Positions 32,561 through 41,662 of a stretch of 41,662 nt of DNA are shown here, in pieces; position 1 is the stretch's first letter; every line of letters starts with the position of its first letter. The DNA is taken from the NCBI GenBank assembly GCA_903919535.1, contig CAIXIP010000038.1, positions 1 to 41,662 on the forward strand, given 5' to 3'. The DNA is from an uncultured Bacteroidota bacterium. GTDB lineage: Bacteria > Bacteroidota > Bacteroidia > 2-12-FULL-35-15. Both the position numbers and the translations under genes were made by a program. The notes under the pieces are model-generated. The model was not told the origin of the DNA and made no database searches. It saw nothing but the letters and a program-made list of their open reading frames with translations.

Positions 32561-33832
32561 ATGAAAATAGTTTCCGCTGCAGAAGCAGCAAAAGCAATCA
32601 AATCTAACGACAATCTTTATATACACTCTGCTGCTGCCACTCCAGAAACATTGGTAGATGCAATGGTAGAGCGACACTCAGAACTTGAAAATGTGAATTT
32701 GTATCACATGCATATAGAGGGTAAAGCGGCATTTTCAAATCCTATTTATGAAAATAGTTTTAAAGATCATGCATTATTCGTAAGTGCAAACACTCGAAAA
32801 TCAGTACAAAATGGGCTAGCTGATTACATACCAATTTTTTACAGTGAAATACCAAGAGTTTTTCGCAAAAGAATTATCCCACTTGATGTAGCATTGATGC
32901 AAGTTTCGCCTCCTGACAAACACGGTAATTGTTCATTAGGCGTTTCTGTTGAATCTAGTTATGCAGCAATGCAATCAGCTAAAACAGTAATTGCTCAAAT
33001 AAATCCGAATATGCCACGAACACATGGTGATGGCATTGTTCACGTTAGCAAAATTGATTTTGGAGTAGAGGTAAATGATCCAATCCATGAAATAATTTAT
33101 GGTGAACCATCAGAGTTAGAAATGCAAATCGGAAGAAATGTGGCTTCAATCATTGAAGATGGAGCAACCTTACAAATGGGTGTAGGAGCTATTCCTAACT
33201 GCGTTTTATCCTGTCTTACTAATCATATAAAATTAGGCGTACACACCGAAATGTTTTCGGATGGATTAATGGATCTTGTTAAAAAAGGGGTAATCACCGG
33301 TGAATTCAAAAAGAAACATCCTGGTAAAATTGTTTCAAGTTTAATTATGGGTTCAAAAAAACTGTATGAATTTGTTGATGACAACCAACAAATCGCCATG
33401 CTTGATATTGGTTATGTGAACGACACAGCTGTTATCCGACAAAATCCAAAAGTAACCGCAATTAATGGAGCTATCGAAGTAGATATGTTCGGACAAATTT
33501 GTGCTGATTCAATTGGATTACTTCAATATTCTGGGGTTGGCGGACAAATGGATTTTATGCGTGGAGCAATGCTTTCAGATGGAGGAAAACCTATTATTGC
33601 ATTACCATCTATTACCAATAAAGGAGAATCGAAAATAGTAAACTTCTTGAAACATGGCGCATCAGTTGTTACCACACGTGCTCATGCAAGATTTATTGTA
33701 ACCGAATATGGCGTTGCCGACTTGTATGCAAAAAACTTAAAAGAAAGAGCTAAAGCGCTTATTGCTATTGCTCATCCAATGCATCGTGAAAATTTAGTTA
33801 TTGAAGCCACGAAAGTTTTAGGAAAATTGTAG
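32561..33832 (+). CDS. Acetyl-CoA hydrolase/transferase family CoA-transferase
   Basis: 423 residues, normal for the family. Landmarks are MQVSPPDKHGNCSLGVSVE near 113-131, GATLQMGVGAIPN (201-213), the active-site Glu E230 in HTEMFSDG, and the C-terminal VVTTRAHARFIVTEYGVADL. These enzymes move CoA between acyl-CoA and an acid through a glutamyl-CoA intermediate; relatives use acetate, butyrate, 4-hydroxybutyrate or succinate. Which acid is used cannot be told. No other fermentation gene lies nearby. The 259-base region upstream has a TAATTTTG element (32335-32342) that could be its promoter, with a poor -33. Confidence 0.92.
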   Translation: MKIVSAAEAAKAIKSNDNLYIHSAAATPETLVDAMVERHSELENVNLYHMHIEGKAAFSNPIYENSFKDHALFVSANTRKSVQNGLADYIPIFYSEIPRVFRKRIIPLDVALMQVSPPDKHGNCSLGVSVESSYAAMQSAKTVIAQINPNMPRTHGDGIVHVSKIDFGVEVNDPIHEIIYGEPSELEMQIGRNVASIIEDGATLQMGVGAIPNCVLSCLTNHIKLGVHTEMFSDGLMDLVKKGVITGEFKKKHPGKIVSSLIMGSKKLYEFVDDNQQIAMLDIGYVNDTAVIRQNPKVTAINGAIEVDMFGQICADSIGLLQYSGVGGQMDFMRGAMLSDGGKPIIALPSITNKGESKIVNFLKHGASVVTTRAHARFIVTEYGVADLYAKNLKERAKALIAIAHPMHRENLVIEATKVLGKL

Positions 33833-33956: not shown

Positions 33957-34874
33957 ATGGCTATACCAGACTATCAATCAATAATGTTACCCTTATTAGA
34001 ATTCATCTCAGACAGTAAAGAGCACAAAATGCGAAATGTTACAGACGAACTAGCATTAAAACTCGGTGTTACCGAAGAGGAACAAAAGGAATTATTGCCT
34101 AGCGGAGTTGCTCCTGTTTTTTATAACAGAACCGCATGGGCAAAAACATATTTAAAAAAAGCGGGGTTAATAGATAGTCCAAAACAAGGAATAGTTATTA
34201 TTTCAAAACGAGGACTTGAAGTTCTTAAAAAAAAACCAAACTCAATCAATGTAAAGTTTTTAAAACAGTTTTCTGAATTTATAGAATTTCAAACATCCAA
34301 ACGTGAAGAAGGAGATGTTGAAATTGATTCTATTGAAGACCAATCTATAGAAACACCTGAAGAATTATTAGAAACTGCTTATCAGAAAATAAGAAAATCA
34401 TTAGCTTCTGAATTAATAAACAAAGTAGTTGAACTATCTCCTGCATTTTTTGAAAAACTAGTCGTTGAGCTTTTGGTCAAAATGGGGTATGGAGGTTCTA
34501 TTAAAGATGCAGGAAAAGCAATGGGCAAAAGTGGTGACGAAGGTATTGATGGAACAATAAAAGAAGACAAACTTGGGCTAGATATAATTTACATACAAGC
34601 AAAGCGCTGGAGACCTGGCAATGTTGTTGGAAGACCAGAACTCCAAAAATTTGTTGGCGCTTTAGCAGGACAAGGTGCTAAAAAAGGGATCTTCATTACG
34701 ACTTCAAACTTCACCAAGGAAGCAATTGAATACACTCCAAGAAATGAAACTAAAATAGTATTAATTAATGGTAGTCAATTGGCGCAATTAATGATTGACT
34801 ATAACCTTGGCTGTACAACACAACAGACATATGAGGTTAAAAAGATTGACAATGACTATTTTGGCGAAGAATAA
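33957..34874 (+). CDS. mrr: Mrr-type restriction endonuclease (type IV-like)
   Basis: 305 residues, about the size of E. coli Mrr. Residues 1-95 fit the Mrr N-terminal winged-helix domain (PDYQSIMLPLLEFISD; NRTAWAKTYLKKAGLI). The catalytic domain (about 160-280) has FFEKLVVELLVKMGYGG, D198 in GDEGIDG and the IYIQAK motif (Q214, K216), the PD-(D/E)XK variant of Mrr, followed by QKFVGALAGQGAKKGIFITTS. Such enzymes cut DNA carrying modified bases. No methyltransferase or other defence gene is adjacent, consistent with a stand-alone type IV system. The short gap before it holds a palindrome. Confidence 0.92.
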   Translation: MAIPDYQSIMLPLLEFISDSKEHKMRNVTDELALKLGVTEEEQKELLPSGVAPVFYNRTAWAKTYLKKAGLIDSPKQGIVIISKRGLEVLKKKPNSINVKFLKQFSEFIEFQTSKREEGDVEIDSIEDQSIETPEELLETAYQKIRKSLASELINKVVELSPAFFEKLVVELLVKMGYGGSIKDAGKAMGKSGDEGIDGTIKEDKLGLDIIYIQAKRWRPGNVVGRPELQKFVGALAGQGAKKGIFITTSNFTKEAIEYTPRNETKIVLINGSQLAQLMIDYNLGCTTQQTYEVKKIDNDYFGEE

Positions 34875-35136: not shown

Positions 35137-35538
35137 TCATTTATTAGTTTGTCTTTTTTTCCAATACCACACATCATCATGTGATTCTTTGTCTATTTGT
35201 TTCCAATAATGCGGTGTAACAAATCGTCCGTCCTCAGTTTTTAACTGGCGGTTATATACTCCATTTACAGGGTTAAATGTTAGATCACTAACACCAACAG
35301 TAAATGTTGTAGATACAGGAGGTGTAGGTGCAGCTTCAACAGGAGCTTCTGTTCCTGCCGGAACGGGAGGTTTAGCTGCAGCTTTTGGTGGTGGACTATT
35401 TACAACAATAACAGTAAAGCCATTAAATTCCAATAGTTTTTTCAAAAAATCAACACGTTCAGCACTGCAATTTTTTTCAATAATGGAGCATTTTACTTCT
35501 CCAAGTTCTTCAAATGAATAATTTGCATTTAATGACAT
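35137..35538 (-). CDS. Hypothetical protein with Pro/Ala-rich linker at the end of the nuo operon
   Basis: 133 residues, no signal peptide or membrane segment. A small N-terminal alpha/beta part (about 1-48; DFLKKLLEFNGFTVIVVN) is joined by a Pro/Ala-rich linker (49-76) to a C-terminal part with aromatic residues (TFNPVNGVYNRQLK; HYWKQIDKESHDDVWYWKK). I do not recognise a family. It starts 13 bases after nuoN and ends at the operon terminator, so it is cotranscribed with complex I. An accessory or assembly role is a guess from position only. Confidence 0.7.
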   Translation of the reverse strand: MSLNANYSFEELGEVKCSIIEKNCSAERVDFLKKLLEFNGFTVIVVNSPPPKAAAKPPVPAGTEAPVEAAPTPPVSTTFTVGVSDLTFNPVNGVYNRQLKTEDGRFVTPHYWKQIDKESHDDVWYWKKRQTNK

Positions 35539-35551
35539 CTGCTATTTTTAA

Positions 35552-36958
35552 TTAAATGGTAAGACTATTAATATAATCGTAAATACAACTTGCAAAACCA
35601 ATAACAACAACACCTATCATACAAATTATCAAACCTAATTTTGCAGAAAAACTTGGATTCAATTTTTCTATTGGTGCATCATTCGGATCAACAAAAATTG
35701 CTTTTACAACACGTAAATAATAATACAATGAAACAATCATATTTAGGGAAGCAATAATCACTAAAATATAATTTCCATGACTTGCTCCTGCTGTTACTAA
35801 AAACATTTTTCCGAAAAACCCTGCTGTTGGAGGAATTCCAGCCAATGAAAACAATGATATTGTAATTACCCAACTTAACAGTTTATTGGTTTTATAAAAA
35901 CCTTTGTAATCACTAATATTTTCTTTGTTTGCAAGGGCAGAAACAATTCCGATAACACCAAACGCACCAAGATTTGAGAATATATATACCAATAAGAAAT
36001 AAATGGTTGCACTTGTGCCCATTTGATTACCTGCAGATAATCCTAATAAAATATAACCAGCCTGTGCGATAGATGAAAATGCAAGAAAACGTTTTATGTT
36101 ATCCTGACGGATAGCAAATAAATTACCGACAGTAATAGTAAGCACAATACTAAGGAATAACATATTGTACCACATGCCTTGAAAATTCAAGAACAACGGA
36201 CCCAATACCGAGATGAACACAAAAACAATTGCGGCTTTTGAAATTACAGAAAGATAAGATGTTACCGAAACCGGTGATCCTTCATACACATCGGCAGTCC
36301 ATAAATGGAAAGGAACAGATGAAAGTTTAAATGCAAATCCTACAAAAATAAATATCAATGATAGAATGTGTAAATTTTTAACAGCGAGAAGAGCAGGTAA
36401 TTCTGCAAAATTTAATGTGCCTGTACTTCCGTACAATAAAGAGATACCAAACAACATGATACATGAAGAGAAGGCTGATAACAAGATCATTTTTACAGCA
36501 GCTTCAGATGACTTTAATTTTTCAAGATCAAAATTAGCAAGCGCTGCCAATGGTATTGATGCAATTTCTAAACCCAAATAGAACATCAAGAAGTTACCAC
36601 TTGATATCATAAAGAACATACCAAGTAATGTGGTTAACAACAAGATGAAAAACTCAGGAACATGTTTGTGTGTTTTAAGCCAATCGAATGCTTGTAAGGA
36701 AATAATAAGTGTACCGAAATTCAGAATTGATTTTTCAAGAACAAGAATATTATTGGTATGGAACATACCATTGAAAAGCATTCCATCAACACTATAAATA
36801 AATCCTACTGCAAAATTAATAAGCAATAAAAAGTTAACAATGTGTAACCAGGTACTGTTATCTTTAATACCATCCCAAACTTTAAGGATAAGCAAAATAA
36901 AGATGATGAGCATTAAGCTCAATTCAGATTTCATTAATATAAAAAAGTCAGTGCTCAT
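35552..36958 (-). CDS. nuoN: NADH-quinone oxidoreductase subunit N
   Basis: 468 residues with about 14 membrane helices. The antiporter-like core shows MFYLGLEIASIPLAALA, FKLSSVPFHLWTADVYEGSPVSVTSY and FLAFSSIAQAGYILLG, typical of NuoN. One of three proton-pumping membrane-arm subunits of complex I. It starts three bases after nuoM. Confidence 0.95.
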   Translation of the reverse strand: MSTDFFILMKSELSLMLIIFILLILKVWDGIKDNSTWLHIVNFLLLINFAVGFIYSVDGMLFNGMFHTNNILVLEKSILNFGTLIISLQAFDWLKTHKHVPEFFILLLTTLLGMFFMISSGNFLMFYLGLEIASIPLAALANFDLEKLKSSEAAVKMILLSAFSSCIMLFGISLLYGSTGTLNFAELPALLAVKNLHILSLIFIFVGFAFKLSSVPFHLWTADVYEGSPVSVTSYLSVISKAAIVFVFISVLGPLFLNFQGMWYNMLFLSIVLTITVGNLFAIRQDNIKRFLAFSSIAQAGYILLGLSAGNQMGTSATIYFLLVYIFSNLGAFGVIGIVSALANKENISDYKGFYKTNKLLSWVITISLFSLAGIPPTAGFFGKMFLVTAGASHGNYILVIIASLNMIVSLYYYLRVVKAIFVDPNDAPIEKLNPSFSAKLGLIICMIGVVVIGFASCIYDYINSLTI

Positions 36959-36961
36959 ATT

Positions 36962-38470
36962 TTAATTTCCTGTTACGCCTCTTGCAATGTTTTCCATTAT
37001 TATTTGTGCATCGGGTGCAATTAAATTATATAACCAAAATGGTGCAATTCCAATTGCAAGAATAGCAACAATTAATAATACAGAAGCAAATTTTTCATTC
37101 CAAGTTGCATCTTTCAAATGCTGGAAATGTTCATTCACAATAGGACCCATTACTGCCTTGCCTGCAGCTCGTAAAATATATACAGCTGTTACTACAATTG
37201 ATGCAGCAGCAAGTATAGTAGCTATGCGATGAAATGCATCAGGGCGTTGCCACGATCCAACAAAAACTGTCATCTCAGCAACAAATCCACTTAAGCCAGG
37301 TAATCCTAATGAACATAAACCAGTGATCACATAAACAGTTCCGATGAAAGGAAGTGTTTTTAATAATCCACCTAATTCAGAAATTTGTCGTGTATGTGTA
37401 CGTTCGTATATCATGCCGATAGCACCGAAGAAAAGGGCTGTCATTACGCCATGAGAAACCATTTGCATTACTGCACCAATAATAGCAGTTTTGGTAAGCA
37501 TACCAATACCAAGTAAAATAAAACCACAGTGACTTACTGATGAATATGCGTTCATATATTTCAAATCCTTTTGCATCAATGTTGCAAACGAACCATAAAT
37601 AATTGCAATTGTTGCAAGCAAAACAATTAACCATGAATATTGTTGTGCTGCTTCAGGCATCAAGTAAACTGCTACACGCAATGCTCCGTAACCTCCCAAC
37701 TTCATAGATATACCAGCAAGGAACATCGAAGCTGCTGTTGGTGCAGATGAGTGACCGTCAGGCACCCAAGTATGAAAAGGAAACAAGGCTGTAAATACTC
37801 CGAACCCTACAAACAGGAATGGGAAAATATACATCTGCGTATGAAGTGAGATATGTGCATGTGCTATTTGCAATAGATCCCATGTATGCACTCCATTGCC
37901 GATATCAGTAGCAAAATAAGTTGCCAACAATCCGATCAAAACAAACACCGATCCGCCCATTAACATCAACGCAAGTTTCATTGCACTGTATTCTTTTTTA
38001 CCACTTCCCCATATTGCAATTAATAAGAATTTAGGAATAACCGCTACTTCTAGGAAGAAGAACATTGTGAATAAATCCAATGATATAAAGAAACCGTATG
38101 CACCAACACTTAATAATAATAGTAAGAAGAAAAATTCTTTTGTTAGTGTTTCTACTTTCCATGAAATTAAAATTCCGGCAACAACCACACATGCGGTAAG
38201 CATTATCATCACAACCGAAATACCATCAACACCAATAAAATATTGAATATTCAATGCGCTGTACCAACTGTAACGTTGCTGAAAAAGCATTTGAGAAGTA
38301 TTGCCGATTGCTCTTTCTGTAATGTAAGAAAACATCATTGCCGATGCCAGTCCAAGTTGAACAAGAGATCCAATAAATGACGTCCACTTAATTTGTGTTG
38401 TGTTACGGCAAAATAACACAGCAATTGCTGTAAGAAGCGGAACAAGTATTAGTATAGTTAAATTCGTCAT
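36962..38470 (-). CDS. nuoM: NADH-quinone oxidoreductase subunit M
   Basis: 502 residues, about 14 helices. Landmarks are FFLEVAVIPKFLLIAIWG (with the helix 5 Glu used in proton pumping), FPFHTWVPDGHSSAPTAA and YMNAYSSVSHCGFILLG. It is the middle antiporter-like subunit of complex I. Its ATG shares one base with the stop of the small HEPN-like gene upstream (TAATG), so translation is coupled to that gene rather than directly to nuoL. Confidence 0.95.
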   Translation of the reverse strand: MTNLTILILVPLLTAIAVLFCRNTTQIKWTSFIGSLVQLGLASAMMFSYITERAIGNTSQMLFQQRYSWYSALNIQYFIGVDGISVVMIMLTACVVVAGILISWKVETLTKEFFFLLLLLSVGAYGFFISLDLFTMFFFLEVAVIPKFLLIAIWGSGKKEYSAMKLALMLMGGSVFVLIGLLATYFATDIGNGVHTWDLLQIAHAHISLHTQMYIFPFLFVGFGVFTALFPFHTWVPDGHSSAPTAASMFLAGISMKLGGYGALRVAVYLMPEAAQQYSWLIVLLATIAIIYGSFATLMQKDLKYMNAYSSVSHCGFILLGIGMLTKTAIIGAVMQMVSHGVMTALFFGAIGMIYERTHTRQISELGGLLKTLPFIGTVYVITGLCSLGLPGLSGFVAEMTVFVGSWQRPDAFHRIATILAAASIVVTAVYILRAAGKAVMGPIVNEHFQHLKDATWNEKFASVLLIVAILAIGIAPFWLYNLIAPDAQIIMENIARGVTGN

Positions 38471-38874
38471 TAGTTCATTTCACTTTCGTTAATCTTCATT
38501 TTTTCAAGCACCAATGTTTTAAACTTATTGGTAACAGTAACACATTCATTTACTTTATCAACTGTCAAACAATATTTTCCGTCACAGGCTTCATGATCCA
38601 ATTCATTACAAAGAATTTCTGACAAACTGATTTTTGAAAACTGATCGTCAATAATGCAACATTGATTCAATAGGCTTTTTAAACTATTTCCTGGATTCTG
38701 ATCAACATTTTTACTCATCAGAAATAAACGCAACATTGTTACCAATGAATGTCGAGCACTATAACAAACGGACATTGTAACAACGTCTTCGTGCGGACGA
38801 TTCAATTCAAACTCAGCAATACGAAGCTCTGTTATAGCTTGTTTTAATGCGTTACGAATTTCATTTGTTACCAT
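38470..38874 (-). CDS. Small helical HEPN-like protein inserted between nuoL and nuoM
   Basis: 134 residues, no membrane segment. Predicted helical, with the opening pattern ALKQAITELRIAEFELN, then YSARHSLVTMLRLFLMSKN, which resembles helices 1 and 2 of HEPN domains. The catalytic R-X4-6-H motif of HEPN ribonucleases is absent. It has seven Cys, including CC and CDGKYC, which could bind metal. It starts 12 bases after nuoL and its stop overlaps the nuoM start by one base, so it is made together with the membrane arm of complex I. This placement suggests an assembly or regulatory role; the fold call is tentative. Confidence 0.6.
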   Translation of the reverse strand: MVTNEIRNALKQAITELRIAEFELNRPHEDVVTMSVCYSARHSLVTMLRLFLMSKNVDQNPGNSLKSLLNQCCIIDDQFSKISLSEILCNELDHEACDGKYCLTVDKVNECVTVTNKFKTLVLEKMKINESEMN

Positions 38875-38886
38875 GTTTCTAATTTT

Positions 38887-40830
38887 TTATGTCCATAAAT
38901 AAATGAACAATAAAACAAATCCTAATGTTCCTGCAAAAAAGTAAATTGCATAATCCTGAACTTTACCAGATTGTAATGACTTAATAGCTTCTGAAACAGA
39001 TTCAGTTACTGAAGCAATTAAATTCATAAAGCCATCAAAAATATTTTTATCAACCCATGCTGCAGGACGACCAATTAAATTGAAAACTATTTTTTTAGTT
39101 ACGAACAGATACATTTCATCAAAATAAAACTTATGATATGCTGCAGTATAAAAGCCTTTTAAGGTGTCTGCCACTTTTTGTGGAACCAAACTTTCTTTTA
39201 CATACATAAAATATGCAAGGAAAATTGCAGCAATAGCAAGCAAGACAGGACCGATTGCAAAACCAATATGAAATTCAGTTTCGAAACCAATTCCATCAGC
39301 AGTTACTAAGTGACTGAAAGGAACAAATCCTGCTACAACAGATAATATTGCAAGAATAATTAATGGAAGCAACATTGTTGCAGGTGCTTCGCCATGATGC
39401 GCATCGTGACTATCAGTATGAGACTTGTATTCTTTATTCCAGAATATATTGAAATATAATCGGAACATATAAAATGCTGTTAATCCAGCTGTAAGAACCG
39501 CTGCACCAAAAATTAGTTTATTTGAATTCCAGCACGCCAATAATATTTCTTCCTTACTGAAAAATCCAGCAAATGGAGGAATTCCGGCAATCGCTAAACA
39601 TGCTAATAAAAATGTGATGTGTGTGATTGGCATCAATTTGCGCAAACCGCCCATATCTTTCATATCATTGCTGTGAACATAATGAATCACCGCACCTGCA
39701 CCAAGGAATAATAATGCTTTGAATATAGAATGTGTAAATAAGTGAAACATAGAACCCATGAAACCAACTCCTGCTTCTGAATAATAACCGGAAACGCCCA
39801 AAGCAAACATCATGAAGCCAATTTGCGACATAGTAGAATAAGCGAGTACACGTTTAATATCTGTTTGCGTACATGCAATAATTGCTGCAAGCATTGAAGA
39901 GAAAATACCGATGTAAGCAACCACTTCTAAAGCTGCCGGACAAGAATTTGAGAAGATAGGGAATAAACGTGCAACTAAATAAACACCTGCAACAACCATG
40001 GTTGCAGCATGTATCAATGCAGAAACTGGTGTTGGACCTTCCATCGCATCCGGCAACCAAATGTGGAAAGGGAACATGGCAGACTTTCCTGCACCACCCG
40101 CAAACACTAGAACCAAGCCCCATGTTAATGCTGAAGCACCTAAAAAAGAAGCTGAAGCAATACTGGTTAAATAATTGCCTTCACTTGTTAATCGCTGAAT
40201 CAAGGTTTGAAAATCCAATGTTTCAGAATAATAAGAAAGAACAAGTATTCCAATTAAAAATCCAAGATCAGCAAAACGTGTAACAATAAATGCTTTTTTA
40301 GAAGCTGCCACTGCTGATGGTTTTTCATAATAAAACCCAATAAGTAAGAATGAAGACACACCCACTAATTCCCAAAAAATATAGATTTGAAAAATATTTG
40401 TGGAAAGTACCAATCCCAACATTGAGAATGTAAATAATGACAGGAATGCGTAATATGTTGCATAACGTGGTTCGCCATTCATATAACCCATACTATAAAT
40501 ATGAACCATTAATGAAATGAACGTAACAATCACAATCATCATCACCGAAATAGGATCTAATAATATTCCCATATCGATAGCTATGTTTGGTCCAAATTGT
40601 AACCATACATATTTTAATGCGATGATTTTTTGATAAACGCCATCAATTTTTCCTACTTCAAAGAAATATTGATATGCTACAAATGCTGATAAAAGAAAAG
40701 AAGCCAATAGCGAAAGTGTTCCCAACACACCTGAAAATTTCGGGAAATACCTACGACCTACTAATCCAATTATCAAGAAAGTTATGATTGGCAAAAGTGG
40801 AATTAACGCTATGTAAGTTGAATTCAACAT
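38887..40830 (-). CDS. nuoL: NADH-quinone oxidoreductase subunit L
   Basis: 647 residues. The antiporter-like core has FWELVGVSSFLLIGFYYEKP, FPFHIWLPDAMEGPTPVSAL and VLAYSTMSQIGFMMFALG. The C-terminus contains the long lateral helix region and a final membrane anchor (FFAGTLGFVLLFIYLW). It is the distal proton-pumping subunit of complex I. It starts two bases after nuoK. Confidence 0.96.
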   Translation of the reverse strand: MLNSTYIALIPLLPIITFLIIGLVGRRYFPKFSGVLGTLSLLASFLLSAFVAYQYFFEVGKIDGVYQKIIALKYVWLQFGPNIAIDMGILLDPISVMMIVIVTFISLMVHIYSMGYMNGEPRYATYYAFLSLFTFSMLGLVLSTNIFQIYIFWELVGVSSFLLIGFYYEKPSAVAASKKAFIVTRFADLGFLIGILVLSYYSETLDFQTLIQRLTSEGNYLTSIASASFLGASALTWGLVLVFAGGAGKSAMFPFHIWLPDAMEGPTPVSALIHAATMVVAGVYLVARLFPIFSNSCPAALEVVAYIGIFSSMLAAIIACTQTDIKRVLAYSTMSQIGFMMFALGVSGYYSEAGVGFMGSMFHLFTHSIFKALLFLGAGAVIHYVHSNDMKDMGGLRKLMPITHITFLLACLAIAGIPPFAGFFSKEEILLACWNSNKLIFGAAVLTAGLTAFYMFRLYFNIFWNKEYKSHTDSHDAHHGEAPATMLLPLIILAILSVVAGFVPFSHLVTADGIGFETEFHIGFAIGPVLLAIAAIFLAYFMYVKESLVPQKVADTLKGFYTAAYHKFYFDEMYLFVTKKIVFNLIGRPAAWVDKNIFDGFMNLIASVTESVSEAIKSLQSGKVQDYAIYFFAGTLGFVLLFIYLWT

Positions 40831-40832
40831 AT

Positions 40833-41147
40833 TTAAAATTTCATTAGATCTGCATCATCAACATCAATTGATTTCAAGCTGCGATACAGATGTATTATTA
40901 TTGCAATTGCCACAGCAGCTTCTGCAGCAGCAATGGTAATGATGAATATGGCAAAAAATAAACCATCCAGTTTATCAGCATATAAATATTTATTGAACGC
41001 CACAAAATTGATGTTGACGCTATTTAAAATTAATTCAATTGCCATCAGCATTGTGATAAGGTTCTTACGTGTAAGAAAACCATACACTCCAATGAAAAAC
41101 AAAGCTGTGCTGATAAATAAAATATGTGTTAATCCTATCTCGTTCAT
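40833..41147 (-). CDS. nuoK: NADH-quinone oxidoreductase subunit K
   Basis: 104 residues from the ATG at 41147, the usual NuoK length; an upstream in-frame ATG (41183) would add 12 hydrophilic residues and lie deep in nuoJ. The chosen start overlaps the nuoJ stop by four bases (ATGA). Three helices, with MAIELILNSVNINFV and the second buried Glu in AAAEAAVAIAI, both part of the proton path of complex I. Confidence 0.95.
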   Translation of the reverse strand: MNEIGLTHILFISTALFFIGVYGFLTRKNLITMLMAIELILNSVNINFVAFNKYLYADKLDGLFFAIFIITIAAAEAAVAIAIIIHLYRSLKSIDVDDADLMKF

Positions 41148-41662
41148 TCTTTTGTTTTTATCTTGATCGCAATTACAATACATCCGATAAGTGCTGCTAA
41201 TAAAAGCATACTCACTACTTCAAAAGGTAAAATATAACCGTGCTCTGTTGTACTTAACATTTGTAATCCTATATTTTTTACTGTTGGCGCAACCGGATGA
41301 TCAATAGCATAACCCGGCTTAACAAAACTGTGTTCAGTAATATATAAATAGGTAAGAGCTGCTGCAAAAAAGGCTGCAAGTCCCGAAAATACTGCTCGCC
41401 ACAAAACTGGTTTTTTCATTTCGTCACCAGAAGCATGTGTTAAGAAAATTGAAAAAATAATCAACACAACAATACCACCAACATAAACAACAATTTGAAC
41501 TGCTGCAATAAATTCATAATTCAAATAGAAATACAAGGCTGCTATTCCTAATAATGAAAATAACAAAAATACAGCTGCACGGAATATTTTACGGGAAGTT
41601 ACCGCAAGTAGTCCACCGCCTATGATTACAGCAGCGATAATATAAAATATGATTTGTGAAGC
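41144..41662 (-). CDS. nuoJ: NADH-quinone oxidoreductase subunit J (5' partial)
   Basis: The reading frame is open to the right edge and the start codon lies outside the window; 172 residues are seen. It opens with SQIIFYIIAAVIIGGGLL and has RAAVFLLFSLLGIAALYFYL and the VQIVVYVGGIVVLIIFSI helix with the conserved Tyr-Val-Gly-Gly of NuoJ. An internal TTG (41566) could be mistaken for a start, but the upstream residues continue the NuoJ family. Its stop overlaps the nuoK start. The operon continues to the right beyond the window. Confidence 0.94.
   Translation of the reverse strand, partial: ASQIIFYIIAAVIIGGGLLAVTSRKIFRAAVFLLFSLLGIAALYFYLNYEFIAAVQIVVYVGGIVVLIIFSIFLTHASGDEMKKPVLWRAVFSGLAAFFAAALTYLYITEHSFVKPGYAIDHPVAPTVKNIGLQMLSTTEHGYILPFEVVSMLLLAALIGCIVIAIKIKTKE

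Follow-up and report, generated by a model that had tools for sequence, protein, structure and literature searches.

A predicted HEPN-fold gene with four conserved cysteines lies between nuoL and nuoM in a Bacteroidota bacterium and is probably an accessory of PFOR/ferredoxin metabolism

The window analysed here, a contig of 41,662 nucleotides from an uncultured Bacteroidota bacterium, ends within a run of complex I genes encoded on the reverse strand (Table 1). Between nuoL and nuoM, 12 bases after the end of nuoL, lies a small open reading frame (ORF) joined to the gene that follows, the last A of its TAA stop codon being the first base of the nuoM ATG. The first-pass annotation had described at this place a seven-cysteine ORF with a TAATG overlap, and the ORF itself together with its neighbours identified by NCBIfam confirms the description. 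Among six copies from the same genus, the two closest and unsaturated pairs gave a dN/dS of about 0.1 for this gene (dN 0.07, dS 0.70-0.76), and the order nuoL-[HEPN]-nuoM is kept in 17 genomes from 7 families. Because of this low dN/dS and the recurrence of the gene order, we take the ORF to be a genuine gene under purifying selection and rule out a chance ORF. In one pair of genomes (G004/G034; L083, L084) the dS of nuoM is 0.16 against 0.70 for the adjacent HEPN gene, as if the histories of the two segments differ.

Table 1. Coordinates of the gene, its operon neighbours and five cysteine codons in the window. PFOR, pyruvate:ferredoxin oxidoreductase.
Feature	Coordinates	Strand	Remarks
Cys4 gene with predicted HEPN fold, probable accessory of PFOR/ferredoxin module	38470..38874	(-)	ATG start, 134 aa, seven Cys
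nuoM	36962..38470	(-)	NCBIfam/TIGR model; start codon overlaps HEPN-gene stop (TAATG)
nuoL of 11-subunit (type-2) complex I	38887..40830	(-)	TIGR/NCBIfam model
nuoK	40833..41183	(-)	TIGR/NCBIfam model; inner ATG is probably the true start
nuoJ, cut by contig end	41144..41662	(-)	position before nuoK as in relatives
nuoN	35552..36958	(-)	TIGR/NCBIfam model
Uncharacterised 133-aa protein, 3′ of nuoN	35137..35538	(-)	nearly all type-2 operons examined have it, whether they carry the HEPN gene or not
Codon of C37	38764..38766	(-)	invariant, 42/42; start of helix 2
Codon of C72	38659..38661	(-)	35/42; also in MNT-HEPN relatives (older feature)
Codon of C89	38608..38610	(-)	40/42; in the loop from helix 3 to helix 4
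Codon of C102	38569..38571	(-)	39/42; loop before helix 4
Codon of C111	38542..38544	(-)	40/42; start of helix 4

We predicted the structure of the protein with AlphaFold from a 33-member alignment (pLDDT 86, pTM 0.81), and found that the best-scoring solved structures were HEPN proteins (4nqf, Z 13.2; 2hsb, Z 13.0; sacsin 3o10, Z 12.9), the best 31 VIA matches being nearly all HEPN proteins or related nucleotidyltransferase domains. The four-helix fold is shared with the members of the HEPN superfamily PF05168, including the MNT-HEPN toxins, AF_0298 (2hsb), TM0613 (1o3u) and the sacsin HEPN domain (3o10), at Z 12-13 and an rmsd of 3.3-3.9 over 113-122 residues. Foldseek placed the same HEPN proteins at the top, but with an E value of 0.05. 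Furthermore, the PF05168 cut-off of 22 bits is passed by relatives of the protein (L062 with 29.8, L067 with 28.9 and L058 with 24.9), though the window protein alone fell short of it in a Pfam search, while an hhalign comparison of the family profile with a set of classical MNT-HEPN partners from the same class gave 98.8% (E 8e-17) over its length. Searches of Pfam, NCBIfam, PADLOC and PDB sequences with the protein or its profile returned no usable direct match, and a match to the YcgN cysteine cluster (E 0.0098) was rejected because it came from one member and fell far under the cut-off. Inspection of the 134 residues found no R-x4-6-H, the nuclease motif by which an active HEPN ribonuclease is recognised. 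Collectively, because of the predicted fold, the PF05168 scores of the relatives and the profile match to the MNT-HEPNs, we assign the protein, on these models and profiles, to the HEPN superfamily (PF05168 / CL0291), as a member that appears to have lost its nuclease motif. The initial reading of a cysteine-rich, HEPN-like protein without the motif is in agreement with this assignment, and the profile and structure searches that it had proposed both point to the same superfamily.

Four hallmark cysteines, namely C37, C89, C102 and C111, each recur in 39-42 of the 42 relatives, a group that we call the Cys4 family. C37 is also found in MNT-HEPNs, as is C72, which makes C89, C102 and C111 the special ones. 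In the model, helix 2 starts at residue 33 and helix 4 at residue 105, with a loop at 82-104, and from the order and topology of the helices the four cysteines would all sit at a single pole of the four-helix bundle. Their spacing matched no recognised cluster motif. C89, C102 and C111 are lost jointly in only two members, the proteins of G159 and G390. The genes for both of these adjoin a gene for a PFOR-like protein of 1637 aa (L069 5055-10349; L068 94-5578), which in G159 (L069) has a C-terminal Fer4_13 ferredoxin domain; in the two cases where the PFOR-like neighbour is shorter (1547 or 1557 aa), the HEPN proteins retain the cysteines.

The Cys4 family differs from the MNT-HEPNs in having neither Rx4-6H nor an MNT partner, and three of its four cysteines are absent from them. 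No MNT nucleotidyltransferase gene adjoins the gene in the window or its Cys4 relatives, and MNT neighbours were found only beside distant HEPNs outside the Cys4 set. Relative to the other proteins of the HEPN superfamily, the neighbourhood of the Cys4 family is metabolic.

The gene had been described as embedded in the complex I operon, and this is right as far as complex I is concerned, the operon being of a second, 11-subunit type and not the canonical one. The gene-bearing genomes of this genus have two types of NuoL, namely a canonical type that is about 43% identical to the window NuoL and has nuoF on the same contig, and the window type, which is 58-100% identical across families. The operon of this second type reads nuoABCD-HIJKLMN without nuoEFG in relatives such as G016 (NuoL 96% identical); the window itself displays only nuoJ-N before the contig end, and the 11-subunit layout is read from G016 and other relatives. 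We rejected the canonical 14-subunit complex I as the host, because the nuoF of this genome accompanies its other nuoL, on contig C101. The type-2 operon is often found beside genes for ferredoxin and a KorAB-type 2-oxoacid:ferredoxin oxidoreductase, and the host operon presumably encodes an 11-subunit complex I that is fed by ferredoxin. Type-2 nuo operons are also repeatedly broken by small unrelated ORFs between D/H, K/L or L/M (L094 7510-7932, L097 9891-10247, L098 11821-12009, L101 11741-12118 and L090 3878-4450), which we take to resemble four-helix-bundle, GxxExxY and IS200-like proteins.

We then compared the genomic contexts of the family, as a check on how broadly the nuoL-nuoM position is kept in Bacteroidota had been proposed. 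The position is occupied in the 17 genomes mentioned above, the contig ending after nuoL in two of them, and the family is also found in other places. It directly adjoins a PFOR or PFOR-like gene in 15 genomes (in family f54 the gene comes after PFOR), and in G071, G340, G379, G383 and G413 the PFOR neighbourhood runs on into ferredoxin, KorAB and an 11-subunit nuo operon. A third context was found in families f90 and f109 of another Bacteroidota class, where the gene follows nuoN of a different 11-subunit operon in the order nuoL-M-N-HEPN-Rrf2(-Rrf2)-PFOR, mostly with one or two Rrf2 genes and with a same-strand PFOR in three genomes. At L126, L129 and L131, one or two regulators of the Rrf2 family stand on the same strand between nuoN-HEPN and PFOR, which suggests that the HEPN-PFOR module may be under Fe-S- or redox-dependent control. 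The fourth context is a single case after rnfE-rnfA, preceded by a KorAB-like pair and by an RnfB-like gene; this rnf-linked copy is the second HEPN paralogue of G093 (L139 8776-9216, L151), and its cluster includes an 838-aa Fer4_13 protein. The tree of the family needs at least eight changes to account for these contexts, so that linkage of the gene to ferredoxin machinery is a recurring feature.

Across 395 genomes of the class, many of them drafts and searched with a first-look step that may miss very divergent copies, all 30 carriers of the gene (16 families) have PFOR, while none of the 331 genomes without PFOR has the gene (64 genomes being PFOR-positive; Fisher p value = 1.7e-27 for the co-occurrence, with relatedness not corrected for). 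Distant profile matches in G005, G013, G014, G081, G117, G120, G146 and others, which are MNT-HEPN pairs without the Cys4 set, were left out of these counts. A similar result was obtained for a sample of 58 relatives not picked for the gene, which is carried by 10 of 13 PFOR-positive and 0 of 45 PFOR-negative genomes. Furthermore, two genomes (G372 and G390) have the HEPN gene beside a PFOR-like gene with no NuoL homologue, in G159 the NuoL match is partial and below the cut-off only, and all three genomes that have an 11-subunit complex I without PFOR (G038, G053 and G056) lack the gene. KorAB can likewise be present without it (L088 of G053), and several 11-subunit operons with KorAB and ferredoxin have no HEPN gene. 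The gene does not need complex I, and the presence of complex I does not ensure that of the gene. Because the gene is carried without NuoL in the first two genomes and missing from the latter three, we conclude that its constant partner is PFOR and not complex I.

The HEPN gene is dispensable for PFOR, being missing from 34 of the 64 PFOR-positive genomes, among them some with closely related PFORs, such as G013, G292, G408 and G324. In the PFOR tree, which has two main clades, the HEPN gene occurs in only one of them, where it was lost (or gained) several times, and a search for overlooked HEPN genes beside PFOR, covering most of the genomes that lack the gene and have an oxidase, found none. 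A haem-copper oxidase is encoded by 30 of 30 carriers, and none of the 15 PFOR-positive genomes without the oxidase has the HEPN gene. The 13 PFORs sampled from oxidase-less genomes fall in one clade, along with two from oxidase-bearing genomes, which is close to a single phylogenetic event, so that the link between the HEPN gene and an oxygen lifestyle is weak. The PFORs of families f1 and f16 (L047/L048/L049 and L125) are about 90% identical, closer than expected between families, which hints that PFOR may have been transferred independently of the position of the HEPN gene.

We consider it probable, with good confidence as to the association, that the gene is an accessory of PFOR/ferredoxin metabolism. 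Under our preferred reading, a HEPN four-helix protein has lost Rx4-6H and would have gained a Cys4 site at the same pole, where helix 3 meets helix 4. This site may bind a metal or an Fe-S cluster, or work as a thiol switch, and the protein may bind PFOR or its ferredoxin, so that PFOR would be tuned or protected by it according to the redox or oxygen state and the supply of low-potential electrons thereby matched to the capacity of the ferredoxin-oxidising complex encoded alongside. In the lineage of the window, the HEPN protein would be co-translated with the complex that takes up electrons from the ferredoxin pool. A mechanism in which the Cys4 protein regulates or protects PFOR is plausible and put forward tentatively, and the statement as a whole, a HEPN-fold accessory of PFOR/ferredoxin with redox or metal tuning or protection by Cys4, is for us nearly an even call that leans to the side of doubt. 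A redox-responsive regulator had also been suggested by the first-pass annotation; that part may hold, with PFOR or the ferredoxin pool as a more likely target than the antiporter subunits NuoL and NuoM. The wider scenario, in which a HEPN domain was domesticated into a Cys4 redox or Fe-S protein coupling PFOR and ferredoxin to the proton-pumping 11-subunit complex I, Rnf and related sinks, is conceivable and on balance rather unlikely; such a protein would be a hitherto unknown part of ferredoxin-driven respiration.

The lack of EFG in the host complex I, together with the linkage of the gene to three different ferredoxin-coupled machines, would also fit a Cys4 Fe-S subunit for electron transfer or docking between PFOR or ferredoxin and the 11-subunit complex I (or Rnf), as the counterpart of the missing NuoEFG. 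The direct donor of the 11-subunit complex is stated as an open question in PMC11238625, and G159 and G390 lose three cysteines where the PFOR-like neighbour reaches 1637 aa, with Fer4_13 in the one of G159. However, the gene is absent from several 11-subunit operons with KorAB and ferredoxin, it occurs without complex I, and the cysteine spacing fits no recognised cluster motif, all of which make such a subunit unlikely. Still more doubtful is a maturation factor with a metal on Cys4, which would insert Fe-S clusters into PFOR or other ferredoxin oxidoreductases or help these enzymes to fold as a chaperone: the strict dependence of the gene on PFOR, the small single-domain protein and the Rrf2-type regulators adjoining the gene in one class, from a family that includes Fe-S sensors, agree with it, but many PFORs, close relatives included, do without the HEPN gene, as does KorAB in G053. 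Since PFOR can do without the gene, a regulator or protector needed under certain conditions is mildly favoured over a carrier or maturase that PFOR always needs.

An assembly factor coupled to the antiporter subunits, the other role proposed at first, would explain the TAATG coupling at the nuoL-nuoM position and its retention in 7 families. It is unlikely as an assembly role for NuoL/M, and as a factor or regulator specific to these subunits it is mostly refuted when the whole family is considered and we give it very little credence, given a soluble HEPN fold, the carriers without a NuoL homologue, the absence from 11-subunit complex I genomes without PFOR, and the copies that adjoin PFOR, follow nuoN or lie in an rnf operon. 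Just as improbable is a degenerate toxin or RNA-binding relic of an MNT-HEPN toxin-antitoxin pair, which would target the mRNA of the operon or have no target at all. The nearest superfamily relatives found are indeed MNT-HEPN pairs, but the purifying selection and strict metabolic linkage argue against a relic, as do the missing MNT neighbour and Rx4-6H and the loss of the RYPD and KxH motifs of MNT-HEPNs.

In other settings the HEPN domain is known chiefly from toxins and defence RNases, and the Cys4 family would be a case in which this toxin fold was recruited to central metabolism. The literature search brought up no functional connection between a HEPN domain and PFOR or complex I, the single co-mention (PMC4910263) being a strain-engineering paper. 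The closest description is that of HEPN-T (Cpin_6617), which is given in Table 1 of Anantharaman et al. 2013 (PMC3710099) as lacking Rx4-6H and as fused to ferredoxin dyads in Bacteroidetes and Nitrospirae. By this table description only, the Cys4 family resembles HEPN-T in the lack of Rx4-6H and the association with ferredoxin, and is possibly HEPN-T or its sister; the text of PMC3710099 gives no function, cysteines or link to PFOR or complex I for it. None of the 42 aligned members, drawn from a sample of Bacteroidota, has a ferredoxin fusion, and nothing turned up in a large genus presumed to include the species with the fusion, a result that the presumption makes weak.

In Campylobacter, Cj1574c/Cj1575c replace NuoE/NuoF (PMC4178425), and the likeness lies in extra proteins at a complex I that receives its electrons not from NADH but from a 2-oxoacid oxidoreductase by way of a small carrier. 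Compared by position, the two cases differ in that Cj1574c/Cj1575c occupy the nuoE/F position, whereas the HEPN gene stands by nuoL/M, nuoN, PFOR or rnf and tracks PFOR rather than complex I. An 11-subunit complex I, nuoABCDHIJKLMN, lacking nuoEFG like the host operon, has been described with PFOR and ferredoxin as the proposed electron source, its electron donor being called unresolved (PMC11238625); the available part of this paper describes no HEPN accessory gene. The family bears on this acknowledged question of how the 11-subunit complex I is fed with electrons, as a genetic marker that ties together PFOR, ferredoxin, KorAB, Rnf and the 11-subunit complex I in Bacteroidota that respire. 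It also points to a single small soluble protein as a handle on the use of low-potential electrons in oxygen-respiring cells.

Two further observations concern the neighbourhood in the window. The 133-aa protein encoded 3′ of nuoN has no Pfam family above the cut-off, its model reached a pLDDT of 71 and gave no convincing fold match (Z <6), and it is a candidate for a constant accessory subunit of the ferredoxin-fed complex I in Bacteroidia. Beyond it, on the forward strand at 33957-34874, a Mrr-type restriction endonuclease (Mrr_N + Mrr_cat) adjoins an acetyl-CoA hydrolase/transferase gene at 32561-33832.
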